A stretch of 64,000 nucleotides of DNA, from positions 124,001 through 188,000 of the forward strand of contig NZ_JACYXK010000029.1 of assembly GCF_014842975.1 (NCBI RefSeq), in the 5' to 3' direction. The DNA is from Rhodanobacter sp. DHB23 (GTDB lineage: Bacteria; Pseudomonadota; Gammaproteobacteria; Xanthomonadales; Rhodanobacteraceae). This document shows, in pieces, positions 56,312 to 61,264 of the stretch; within the stretch, counting starts at the first letter, position 1, and every line of letters begins with the position of its first letter. The position numbers and the translations under genes were made by a program. The notes under the pieces are model-generated. The model saw nothing but the letters and a program-made list of their open reading frames with translations, was not told the DNA's origin and ran no database searches.

Positions 56312-57517
56312 TCAGCCCGAAATCGCCAGGCGCTCCGAACGGTACAACTGCGCGGTGATGCCTGCCGCGACCAGCGCCGCCGCCAGCGTGCCGGCGAGAC
56401 ACAGCCCGAGCTGGTCCAGCGTGACACCGTCGCCGCGCAGTTGCTGCATGATGCCGAGGTTCTGGCCCAGCAGCGGTACCGCGTACATCCATGCCTGCGC
56501 CTTGATCGGCAGGAAGGCCAGCACGGCGCTTGGGATCGCCGGCACCATCATGAGCAGCGAGACGTAGGTCTGCGCTTCGCGGTAGCTCTTGGCGAACGCC
56601 GCCACCAGGGTCTGCAGGGAAGCCAGCAAGAGCACCAGCGGCAGCATCAGCAGCAACACGGTGCCGGCGAAATGCCAGCCTAGATCCAGCTCCATGCCCA
56701 GCTTTTCGGCGGGGATGAATTGCCCCACCACCGCGAACGCCAGCACGGTGATGGCGAGACTGGCGCAGGAGAACGCGCAGATCGCCGCGAGCTTGCCCGC
56801 CAGGATCTTCCAGCGCTCCACCGGGTTGGCGAACAGCGGCTCCAGCGATTGCCGCTCGCGCTCGCCGGCGGTGAGGTCGATGGCAAGCGGCATGCCGCCG
56901 ATGAACAGCGCGATCACGAAGAAGTACGGCAGCATCGCGAACAGCAGCACCGCGCGCGACTGTGGCGTGGCCTGGTCGCGCTTGGCGACCAGCACCGGCC
57001 ACGCGGTCCCCGGAGACATGCCGCGCGCCACCAGGCGCATCGCGCCCTGCTGGCGCGCATAGGCCTCCACCAGTTTCTGCACGCGCTCCACCGCGCTGCT
57101 GGTGTCCTGCCGCGAGGAGTCGTAGAACATCTCCACCTGCACCGGCTCGCCTTTGCGCCAGGCCGCGCCGTAGCCGGCGGCGATGCGCAGCACCACGTCG
57201 GCATCCTGCTTGCGCACGGCCTGGCCCGGGTCGGCCACCGCCGCATCGGGAACGATGCCGCCCTCCTTCAAGGCATCGACCAGGTTCGGCGCGTACTGCG
57301 CGCCGATCACCGGCACGTGCAACGGCTTGTCGATCTTGTCCAGTTGCATGCTGACCTGCATGTTGATCAGCATCACGAACAGCAGCGGACCCAGCAGCGG
57401 GCCGGTGATGAAGGCGCTCAGCACGGTGCGGCGGTCGCGCAGGTTCTCGCGCACCTCCTTGAGGAACACGGTGAGCATGGCGCCGGTGCGGCGCGCTTGC
57501 GAGGCGACGGCGTTCAT
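56312..57517 (-). CDS. ABC-2 type permease (NatB-like)
   Basis: This 401-residue integral membrane exporter subunit has one N-terminal helix (RTVLSAFITGPLLGPLLFVMLI). A large extracytoplasmic domain follows, and five to six helices make up the C-terminal half, the NatB/YhaP-style layout. AGERERQSLEPLFANPVERW is the conserved coupling region for the ATPase. The ATG overlaps the ATPase gene stop by 4 bases. It is the last gene of the seven-gene operon that starts at 61264. The substrate is unknown. Confidence 0.87.
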   Translation of the reverse strand: MNAVASQARRTGAMLTVFLKEVRENLRDRRTVLSAFITGPLLGPLLFVMLINMQVSMQLDKIDKPLHVPVIGAQYAPNLVDALKEGGIVPDAAVADPGQAVRKQDADVVLRIAAGYGAAWRKGEPVQVEMFYDSSRQDTSSAVERVQKLVEAYARQQGAMRLVARGMSPGTAWPVLVAKRDQATPQSRAVLLFAMLPYFFVIALFIGGMPLAIDLTAGERERQSLEPLFANPVERWKILAGKLAAICAFSCASLAITVLAFAVVGQFIPAEKLGMELDLGWHFAGTVLLLMLPLVLLLASLQTLVAAFAKSYREAQTYVSLLMMVPAIPSAVLAFLPIKAQAWMYAVPLLGQNLGIMQQLRGDGVTLDQLGLCLAGTLAAALVAAGITAQLYRSERLAISG

Positions 57518-58248
57518 GCGGCGAGGCCCTCGTCGGTTCCGATGATCTTCACGAAGGCATCCTCCAGATTGGCTTCGCCGGTCTGCGCGCGCAGCGCGTC
57601 GGGCGTTTCGTCGGCCACCACGCGGCCGTGCGCGATCACCACGATGCGGTCGCACAGCGCCGCCACCTCCTGCATGATGTGGCTGGAGAACAGCACGCAG
57701 CGTCCCTCCGCCTTCAGCTGCTGCATGAAGCGGCGCAGGCCGCGCGTGGCCATCACGTCGAGGCCGTTGGTGGGTTCGTCGAGGATCACGTTGCGCGGGT
57801 CGTGGATCAGCGCGCGGGCGATCGCGGTCTTCACCCGCTGGCCCTGCGAGAAGCCCTCGGTGCGGCGGTCGAGGATGTCGCGCATCTCCAGCGCGTCGAC
57901 CAGCGCGTCGTGGCGCGCGCGCAGCGTGGCTTCGGCTATGCCGTGCAGGCGCGCGAAGTATTCGATGTTCTCGCGCGAGGTGAGCCGCTTGTACAGGCCG
58001 CGCGCATCCGGCAGCACGCCCAGTGCGCGGCGCACCGCCAGCGGATCGGTCGCGGCGTCGACGCCGTCCACCAGCACCTGCCCGCTGTCGGGCTGCGTCA
58101 GCGTGTAGAGCATGCGCAGGGTGGTGGTCTTGCCGGCGCCGTTGGGGCCGAGCAGGCCGGTTATCTCGCCGTCGCGGGCGGTGAAGCTGACGCCGTCCAC
58201 GGCCTTCACCGTGCCGAACGCCTTGTGCAGGTCCCTGACTTCGATCAC
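57514..58248 (-). CDS. ABC transporter ATP-binding protein (NatA-like)
   Basis: This 244-residue ATPase drives the adjacent permease. Walker A GPNGAGKT is at 34-41, the signature FSQGQ at 133-137, Walker B ILDEPTNGLD at 155-164, and the switch His190 follows. The GTG start at 58248 overlaps the stop of a 57-residue membrane peptide gene (GTGA). It belongs to the NatA/DRR-type family whose members export Na+, lipids, drugs or peptides. Confidence 0.9.
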   Translation of the reverse strand: MIEVRDLHKAFGTVKAVDGVSFTARDGEITGLLGPNGAGKTTTLRMLYTLTQPDSGQVLVDGVDAATDPLAVRRALGVLPDARGLYKRLTSRENIEYFARLHGIAEATLRARHDALVDALEMRDILDRRTEGFSQGQRVKTAIARALIHDPRNVILDEPTNGLDVMATRGLRRFMQQLKAEGRCVLFSSHIMQEVAALCDRIVVIAHGRVVADETPDALRAQTGEANLEDAFVKIIGTDEGLAA

Positions 58249-58418
58249 GGCCGTCCACCCCGCTTGAGGCAGGCGTCCGGGCCGGCAGCCGTCACGGAAA
58301 ACACGGCCAGCAGCGGCAACAGGATCTGGCTGAAGACATGCGGAGCATCGAGCACGGCTGCGGCGATAGCCGTCGCAGCCCACAGTACGGCGTTTGCCGG
58401 AACGTATGGCTTTCTCAT
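58245..58418 (-). CDS. 57-residue hydrophobic peptide within the operon
   Basis: This short gene encodes MRKPYVPANAVLWAATAIAA and continues to 57 residues, with one or two hydrophobic helices (ANAVLWAATAIAAAV and FSQILLPLLAVFSVTAA) and a basic tail ending KRGGRP. Its ATG overlaps the hydrolase stop by 4 bases (ATGA) and its stop overlaps the ATPase start (GTGA). The exact overlaps on both sides support real translation. No family is recognised; it could be an accessory subunit of the transporter or a peptide substrate. Confidence 0.65.
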   Translation of the reverse strand: MRKPYVPANAVLWAATAIAAAVLDAPHVFSQILLPLLAVFSVTAAGPDACLKRGGRP

Positions 58419-59992: not shown

Positions 59993-60189
59993 GTATCGCT
60001 TCCCGGTTCAAAGATGGATTCGATCGGACGTCCAAACAGCCTTGCGATCCTGAACGCCAGCGGCAGGCTGGGGTCGTACTTGCCGGTCTCGATGGCGTTG
60101 ACGGTCTGCCGCGACACTTCCAGCCGCTCGGCGAGATCCGCCTGCGACCAGCCTTGCTCGCCACGCAGTTCGCGCACGTGGTTGTTCAT
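59989..60189 (-). CDS. Small XRE-family transcriptional regulator
   Basis: This 66-residue protein is almost entirely one Cro/CI-type helix-turn-helix domain: VRELRGEQGWSQADLAERL, then the recognition region EVSRQTVNAIETGKYDPS. Regulators of this size and sequence type usually sit with small membrane proteins and repress their own operon. It overlaps the genes on both sides by 4 bases. The palindrome at 61288-61307 is its likely operator. Confidence 0.88.
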   Translation of the reverse strand: MNNHVRELRGEQGWSQADLAERLEVSRQTVNAIETGKYDPSLPLAFRIARLFGRPIESIFEPGSDT

Positions 60190-60617
60190 TGGTAGCGGCG
60201 CGACAGCAGGAGGCGGACCACGCCGTACACGCCGATCATCAGCGGCAGCACCCACAGCATCGCCCATGGCGGCGAGGGCAGCACGCGCACGTTCTGCAGG
60301 AAACCGAGGCCGAAGGTTGCCATCCCGATCACCGCGCAGGTGATGGCCACCGCCTGCAGTTCGATGCGCTGCTGCAACTCGTCCTGGCGCAGCATGTGCC
60401 GCAGCATCGCGCGCACCACGAACGCCATCGGCACCACCGGCAGCAGGGCCACCACCGCCCTCCACGCGGCCGGCATGTCGACGCGCAGCAGCACCACGAC
60501 CGAAACCAGCAGCACGACCAGGTAGCCGAGCATGGCCGGCAGGAACTCGCGCAGGTAATGCTGCTGCAGCGTGCGTGCCTGCTGTCCGGCAAGGACGGAA
60601 CCGCGGCGGCCGCTCAT
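60186..60617 (-). CDS. Small membrane protein with DELxQR motif (paralog of the next gene)
   Basis: This 143-residue protein has four hydrophobic helices and ends with a basic LLLSRRYQ tail. A cytoplasmic motif (RQDELQQRIELQ) lies between helices 2 and 3. The segments ML-RQDELQQR and WVLPLMIGVYGVVRLLLSRRY closely match the 216-residue protein encoded next to it, so the pair arose by duplication. The function is unknown. It overlaps both neighbours by 4 bases. Confidence 0.72.
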   Translation of the reverse strand: MSGRRGSVLAGQQARTLQQHYLREFLPAMLGYLVVLLVSVVVLLRVDMPAAWRAVVALLPVVPMAFVVRAMLRHMLRQDELQQRIELQAVAITCAVIGMATFGLGFLQNVRVLPSPPWAMLWVLPLMIGVYGVVRLLLSRRYQ

Positions 60618-61264
60618 CGCGCCGGCTCCCCGTCCGATGCGCCGCGGGAGGCATGGCGCCTGCGCCAGTACCGATAGCCCTGCCATGCCAGCACCAGCAC
60701 CAGGGCCGAGCCCATGCCGGCCAGCATGCCGATGTCGAAATCGTCGTGGCGCAGCCATGTCGCCAGCGCCACGGCCGCCACCAGCGCGAGCATCAAGGCC
60801 AGGCGCTGGCGGAAGGAAAAGCTGCTCTCGGCGCAGGCCATGTCATGGCCATAGCGCCGGCCCAGCAACCAGCGCGTGATGCCATAGGCCACCAGCTGCA
60901 ACGGGAACACCCAGATCAGCACGATGCCGTCCAGTTGCACCAGCTTCGCCGCGGCAAGGAAGCCGCCGACCAGGCTGGCCGCCCCGACCAGTGCCGTGGC
61001 CACGCCGAGCGCGACCAGATGGGTGCGCTGCTCCAGTTCGTCGCTGTGCAGGATGCGCCGCGCCAGCAGCGCGATCACATAGAGCATGAGCGCCGCCGGT
61101 GCCAATGCCAGCAGCAGCTTCAGCGGCAGGTTGCCGGTGGTCTTCACCCAAGGCCAGGCCAGCAGCATGAAGCCGACGTACAGGATCATCGCTGCCATCA
61201 CCTGGCGCTGGTACTGCCTTTCCGTGAAGCGCCGCAGCGGCGGCCTGTTTCCACCCGTGGGCAT
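60614..61264 (-). CDS. Membrane protein with DELxQR motif (first gene of the operon)
   Basis: This 216-residue protein has six hydrophobic helices. The first four parallel the 143-residue paralog (HSDELEQRTHLV then WVFPLQLVAYGITRWLLGRRY), and two extra helices are added at the C-terminus (RLALMLALVAAVALATWL and the MLAGMGSALVLVLAW region). No enzyme motif is visible. ATG 61264 has GGGGGAT 9 bases upstream; GTG 61270 is an alternative. It is the first gene after the operon promoter. Confidence 0.72.
   Translation of the reverse strand: MPTGGNRPPLRRFTERQYQRQVMAAMILYVGFMLLAWPWVKTTGNLPLKLLLALAPAALMLYVIALLARRILHSDELEQRTHLVALGVATALVGAASLVGGFLAAAKLVQLDGIVLIWVFPLQLVAYGITRWLLGRRYGHDMACAESSFSFRQRLALMLALVAAVALATWLRHDDFDIGMLAGMGSALVLVLAWQGYRYWRRRHASRGASDGEPAR

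Follow-up and report, generated by a model that had tools for sequence, protein, structure and literature searches.

A candidate autorepressed operon in Rhodanobacter that joins an XRE regulator and small membrane proteins to a hydrolase-exporter trio

Small XRE repressors paired with membrane proteins are known, for example the YozG/DUF2975-type pairs, and in the streptococcal HdrRM and BrsRM systems a LytTR regulator is combined with a membrane inhibitor. Other described systems with related parts are the NatAB/DrrAB ABC-2 (ATP-binding cassette) exporters, the secreted hydrolases Hip1 (Rv2224c) and TnmK1/TnmK2, and the short-peptide export of PptAB/Rgg (PMC7564271). In this report, we analyzed a 64,000-nucleotide stretch of Rhodanobacter sp. 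DHB23 (contig NZ_JACYXK010000029.1, positions 124,001 to 188,000; C19 in our set, from a genome of 3.97 Mb), hereafter called the window, and within it a cluster of seven genes that encode two membrane proteins (memA, memB), an XRE protein (xre), a TAP-like hydrolase (tap), a micropeptide and the two subunits of an exporter (natA, natB). Our preferred reading, to which we assign a probability of roughly 55%, is that this is an autorepressed envelope-response operon in which the membrane proteins control XRE. As judged from the comparison of loci, the cluster is a predicted assembly of three layers, namely an effector trio, a membrane-protein/XRE module and the micropeptide.

With the YozG/DUF2975-type pairs the locus shares a short XRE protein limited to its helix-turn-helix (HTH) domain, lying beside a small multi-helix membrane protein; it differs in the lack of a Pfam match for the membrane protein, in the dual operator, and in the exporter-hydrolase trio downstream. 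HdrRM and BrsRM resemble the proposed scheme, in which a DNA-binding protein is held by a co-encoded membrane protein, but here the regulator is XRE rather than LytTR and, by promoter geometry, a repressor, the membrane family is another one, and the host is Gram-negative. The exporter has the ABC_tran ATPase and ABC2 membrane subunit of the NatAB/DrrAB type, yet it is coupled to a hydrolase gene and scores under the DrrA and ABC_perm_CPBP cut-offs. Hip1 and TnmK1/TnmK2 are the nearest folds of tap, in which the serine-hydrolase residues are kept, whereas identity to them is about 20%, and tap has ten invariant cysteines and is set in an ABC-exporter operon. As in PptAB/Rgg, an ABC exporter, a gene of peptide size and a regulator with a related fold come together in the locus, but here the peptide gene is unconserved and XRE is without a peptide-binding domain. 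In the portion of the open-access PubMed Central literature that was covered, no description of the operon or its operator was found, and an earlier sequence-only reading of the window had likewise matched the cluster to no named system. The features are the following.

61354-61335, minus strand: operator O1, GTGTAAAGCACGCTTGACAG; its right arm contains the -35 hexamer TTGACA (61341-61336), at the same place in relatives
61317-61312, minus strand: putative -10 hexamer TACGCT, 18 bp after the -35; many relatives have a TAxxxT-like hexamer there (by eye)
61307-61288, minus strand: operator O2, GTGTAAAGGGTGCTTTACAC, a perfect inverted repeat, GTGTAAAG-GGTG-CTTTACAC, that begins four bases past the -10
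61270-60614, minus strand: memA, membrane protein of 218 residues with six hydrophobic stretches, of the DEL..R family
60617-60186, minus strand: memB, 143 residues, of the same family as memA, with four hydrophobic stretches
60189-59989, minus strand: xre, 66 residues, HTH_3 domain only, no sensor domain
59992-58415, minus strand: tap, 525 residues, probably an exported alpha/beta hydrolase, with a TAP-like C-terminus
58418-58245, minus strand: micropeptide, 57 residues, two hydrophobic segments, lineage-specific
58248-57514, minus strand: natA, GTG start, ABC ATPase of 244 residues, DrrA/NatA type
57517-56312, minus strand: natB, ABC-2 permease of 401 residues

The operator consensus, TGTMAAG-N4-CTTKACA, is present twice just upstream of memA, and the TTGACA inside O1 is a perfect -35 box. 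The sequence-only reading had placed all the genes behind one operator; there are two, both outside the interval that it described. O1 and O2 are the only exact sites in the window's genome, where one other place matches with up to three mismatches. When TGTMAAGNNNNCTTKACA was searched in 197 genomes of the same family, it was present in 160, compared to two for a reversed control pattern, and about 0.01 sites are expected by chance per 4 Mb (assuming 65% G+C). Two sites were found in 121 of the motif-bearing genomes, one in 13, three in 19 and four in seven. Across the order of Rhodanobacter and Stenotrophomonas, the motif occurs in 124 of 299 genomes, family genomes included, and the reversed control in five; in family f2, about 33 genomes carry the motif exactly twice (sites counted irrespective of spacing), and several genomes of other families of the order have lone sites. 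The arrangement of two sites around the promoter recurs among the loci; the two sites of the listed pairs are 43 to 47 bases apart, except in L035, L036 and L042, where the distance is 28.

The XRE protein matches PF01381 (HTH_3) with 64.7 bits for a cut-off of 23 (expectation value, E, 7.8e-18), and there is little outside this domain. At E 1e-20 it was detected in 163 of the 197 family genomes, and it is also present in loci of Stenotrophomonas, Thermomonas and Lysobacter. XRE and operator occur together in 159 family genomes, XRE alone in four, the operator alone in one, and neither in 33, which belong to several genera (Fisher p 6e-32, relatedness not corrected); this table was compiled by eye from the XRE and operator listings, with 14 XRE-negative genomes absent from the former taken as the complement. 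Among the four genomes with XRE only, the sequence ends about 100 bases upstream of xre in two (G077, G138), the operator pair is present with one mismatch per site in G063, and G140 is a real exception. The single operator-only genome (G183) is 77% complete and has one site.

Individual loci were also compared. The sample comprises 40 loci hand-picked to cover 25 of 26 genera, 80 further named loci that are the best 80 of 132 relatives, four operon loci from genomes with extra operator sites, and the window, that is, 125 loci, or 111 distinct ones after dropping those identical over the last 900 bases of tap. XRE was counted as present at more than 60% identity by tblastn, and the operator pair at no more than one mismatch per site. 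Rhodanobacter, Dyella, Luteibacter, Frateuria, Oleiagrimonas, Dokdonella, Stenotrophomonas, Thermomonas and Lysobacter are among the named loci, and Rhodanobacter provides the best named relatives of the window's tap. The operator pair accompanies xre in 101 of the 103 distinct loci that have it (the misses being L046, at a contig end, and L125) and is found in none of the eight that do not, two of which (L161 and L170) are cut at tap and hence uninformative. Comparison supports a model in which XRE acts at the operator pair, as well as the earlier proposal that the genes form a single unit with the XRE regulator.

The same gene order recurs in chromosomal loci of many genera, usually with one copy per genome, which speaks against a mobile defence or toxin-antitoxin unit. 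XRE proteins are common as antitoxin regulators, and in PADLOC tap matches a candidate model named 'TAP-like protein' (E 5.6e-26) and natA matches mad3 of MADS (E 6.7e-27), but on reading these matches appear to reflect broad similarity among hydrolases, HTH proteins and ATPases rather than a system, and we regard such a unit as highly improbable. The PADLOC scan of the seven proteins gave single-gene matches only, with no system-specific gene set, and identification as a known defence system was rejected. Spread by plasmids was rejected as well, a search of 72,556 plasmid records having given only two tblastn matches, near 30% identity.

The DEL..R membrane proteins form one family with one to three copies per locus; the 'twin' proteins of the sequence-only reading are two of its members. 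An alignment of 50 members shows two invariant residues, E80 and R84 in memB numbering, and a nearly invariant D79; this DE...R motif lies where the predicted helix 80-109 of memB begins. The structure prediction for memB is all-helical, with a predicted local distance difference test (pLDDT) of 86, and gives no hint of function. A membrane gene accompanies xre in 101 of the 103 distinct loci that have it, and no XRE-less locus has one; we therefore consider that these genes go with the regulator and not with the exporter. The competing view, that they encode effectors or exporter subunits while XRE answers to something else, can call on the fact that the partnership of the membrane proteins with an XRE protein devoid of a ligand domain is our own supposition, and on the two loci that keep XRE without them. 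However, XRE-less loci that retain the exporter have none of them, memA and memB were not found by tblastn in six tap-bearing genomes outside the order (see below), and the spacing of the membrane genes to xre is -4 in 52 of the 111 loci; we judge this view unlikely. A third member of the family lies between xre and tap in L035, L036, L043, L050, L051 and L055. In L150 the membrane gene is gone, with xre and both operators kept, the second operator with one mismatch. DUF2975 was reached by one of the 50 members (E 0.0045); a Pfam identity or a fold relative for the family was rejected on the Pfam and PDB comparisons.

Because the operators bracket the promoter, their geometry suggests repression of the operon by its own product. 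In the preferred reading, XRE would sit on O1, over the -35, and on O2, just past the -10, and shut off its own operon. The small membrane proteins would be its control partners, which would respond to an altered inner membrane, or to a compound embedded there, by releasing XRE from the DNA, perhaps via the conserved motif at the start of the memB helix. With the operon derepressed, the cell would make the NatAB exporter and the Hip1-like serine hydrolase, the latter for export; acting jointly, the two might transport and cut a peptide, lipopeptide or ester that is membrane-active or derives from the envelope. It is conceivable that the micropeptide is a small membrane accessory of the exporter.

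Several points weigh against this reading. The case is built on genome comparison, with repression rather than activation presumed, and likewise the direction of membrane control; what the hydrolase cleaves and what the exporter carries is guesswork. The built-in sigma-70 promoter scan of the window made no call at the putative promoter. As the motif was defined on loci of the same family, the count over 197 genomes is not a fully independent test; it also ignores shared descent, and several of the XRE-less genomes are incomplete. Third sites occur in 19 of the 160 motif-bearing family genomes, their surroundings having been inspected in three. Two XRE loci (L125 and L150) are without a membrane gene, and as L150 keeps xre and operators, the membrane proteins are not always needed. 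Finally, no Pfam family was matched by more than two of the 50 membrane proteins at E 0.05 (among the 25 most-matched of 35 families), nor did a PDB fold match emerge (best E 0.54).

The effector trio consists of tap, natA and natB. The tap protein matches PF08386 (TAP-like) with 61.3 bits for a cut-off of 21, and S232, D451 and H479, which by motif we take to be the Ser-Asp-His triad, do not vary across the 24 aligned sequences, nor do ten cysteines. Such cysteines would suit a disulphide-bonded enzyme that folds outside the cytoplasm. The AlphaFold model (pLDDT 82) has Hip1 and TnmK1/TnmK2 as its nearest solved folds, the match to mycobacterial Hip1 having E 1.8e-21 and a template modelling (TM) score of 0.72 by target and 0.64 by query. 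We take tap to be probably an exported Hip1-like serine hydrolase and a candidate peptidase. NatA matches PF00005 with 108.5 bits, and its best match is the DrrA model TIGR01188 (231.8 bits, under the cut-off of 312.45). NatB matches PF12698 (ABC2_membrane_3) with 77.3 bits and NF041647 (ABC_perm_CPBP) with 222.4 bits, under the cut-off of 435 and over profile positions 3-397 of 636 only; it resembles the permease half of that model, the C-terminal CPBP protease part not being covered. The earlier placement of an exported TAP-like hydrolase with a NatAB exporter holds in 109 of the 111 distinct loci, where natA and natB are both present; the misses are apparently L166 and L174, where the sequence ends.

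At E 1e-40, tap is present in 188 of the 197 family genomes, including every XRE-bearing one and 25 without XRE; some of the nine genomes without it are incomplete. Six informative loci (L052, L065, L068, L070, L071 and L171) have tap, natA and natB without the membrane/XRE module, L065 keeping an XRE-like stretch of 36 residues at 53%. Class-wide, tap was detected in nine of 229 genomes at E 1e-80, three of them being the window's own or of its order; in all of the remaining six, outside the order, tap, natA and natB lie side by side, and there neither a tblastn match to xre, memA or memB nor an operator was found. Since the trio stands without the module outside the order, it looks older, and the module an addition. 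An old trio that can do without regulation and stays adjacent in those six genomes is what housekeeping envelope maintenance would predict, the trio handling an ordinary component such as lipoprotein fragments or cell-wall peptides while XRE tunes the dose and the membrane proteins measure the state of the membrane. Yet an inducible response would account better than a constant need for a regulator with nearly one target and a tight dual operator, and the genomes without tap also count against housekeeping, which we hold to be rather improbable. In one genome (G028:C205:4001-5575) tap has an internal TAG stop.

The gene chain itself was confirmed: the seven open frames and the six 4-base overlaps that join them are as first described, five of the type ATGA and one GTGA. 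The start of memA may be the GTG at 61270, with AGGGGG just upstream, the ATG at 61264 being the alternative. A 4-base overlap by itself is nothing unusual in a bacterial genome. Of the 111 distinct loci, 101 retain the ATGA overlap of natA with natB, 66 have the -4 spacing between tap and natA (the 21 loci with the micropeptide cannot show it), and in 35 the last bases of xre offer an in-frame ATGA or GTGA start codon. The five junctions counted, all but memA-memB, occur together in four loci only (the window, L038, L039 and L044); the chain is therefore real, but its unbroken form is a local state.

The micropeptide is present in 21 of the 111 distinct loci, with both 4-base overlaps in 15 of them, and was rejected as a core component; on this distribution it is a predicted lineage-specific extra of Rhodanobacter and near relatives. 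The idea of one functional set of all seven genes fails on this point and on the separable membrane-protein/XRE module. Separation of the hydrolase or the micropeptide in relatives had been named as telling against it: the micropeptide is indeed missing from most of the loci, and the hydrolase stays with the exporter. Gene order and overlaps would suit a peptide signal or bacteriocin, in which the micropeptide would leave the cell through NatAB, be shortened by the TAP-like hydrolase and be perceived via the membrane proteins and XRE. The ratio of nonsynonymous to synonymous differences (pN/pS) in its frame, 0.64 compared to 0.86 and 1.25 in the other frames (nine sequences of equal length), points the same way; it gives weak evidence of constraint on the frame, and the value for natA beside it is 0.15. 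Against a peptide signal, loci that lack the micropeptide keep regulator, operators, exporter and hydrolase, its aligned start is not ATG or GTG in four of the 21 loci, and it has two hydrophobic segments and, by reading, no obvious leader or cleavage site. We consider this signal very unlikely; the peptide processing or self-protection role suggested earlier for the cluster is possible.

Additional operator sites hint at a wider regulon. Six genomes have a second operator pair that is unlinked to the operon. In L188 and L189 it precedes a lone alpha/beta hydrolase gene, similar to an extra hydrolase that heads the operon in L035, L041, L044, L057, L063 and L072, with the pair before it in all six; the extra hydrolases of L044 and L189 were run through Pfam and the others compared by reading the sequence. 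L036, L038 and L053 also have an open frame there that agrees in size and position, the two features on which it was matched. Since the pair precedes hydrolase and Sel1-like genes elsewhere, it seems to travel with the genes it serves. It is tempting to see here a new membrane-to-DNA switch of the order, composed of an E/R-motif sensor family, XRE, bracketing operators and a portable envelope clean-up regulon that includes unlinked genes for exported proteins; we put this forward tentatively, at somewhat less than even odds. The two-site operator, which occurs once in most motif-bearing genomes and would serve a regulator found in most of the family, makes for a sharp prediction, and the inducer should therefore be findable with one reporter construct. 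Its identity would tell what the hydrolase-exporter trio is for.

The Sel1-like genes preceded by a pair are those of L190, L193, L194 and L198, all of one genus, and lie apparently upstream of dapF; from reading the sequences we take the protein to be exported and the neighbour to be dapF, and the Sel1 match in L193 reaches 24.1 bits, under the Pfam cut-off of 30.7. The two pairs of G131 were rejected as new targets, both preceding operon copies on two contigs (L196 and L197). G033 and G195 have their third site no more than 200 bases from the pair. Single sites were seen at the promoter of a beta-lactamase-family serine hydrolase with DUF3471 (L200:3271-3288), before a sigma-factor gene (L202), and in L201, where nothing clear follows; such lone sites are possibly due to chance.

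Divergent from the operon in the window, 61844-63221 on the plus strand encodes an exported-looking protein without a Pfam match and a PapD-type pilus chaperone. Convergent with it, 54399-56281 on the plus strand encodes a second alpha/beta hydrolase besides a ferrochelatase (PF00762, 361.6 bits); downstream of natB, many loci of the same genus have frames that resemble these two in size and orientation, the features compared.

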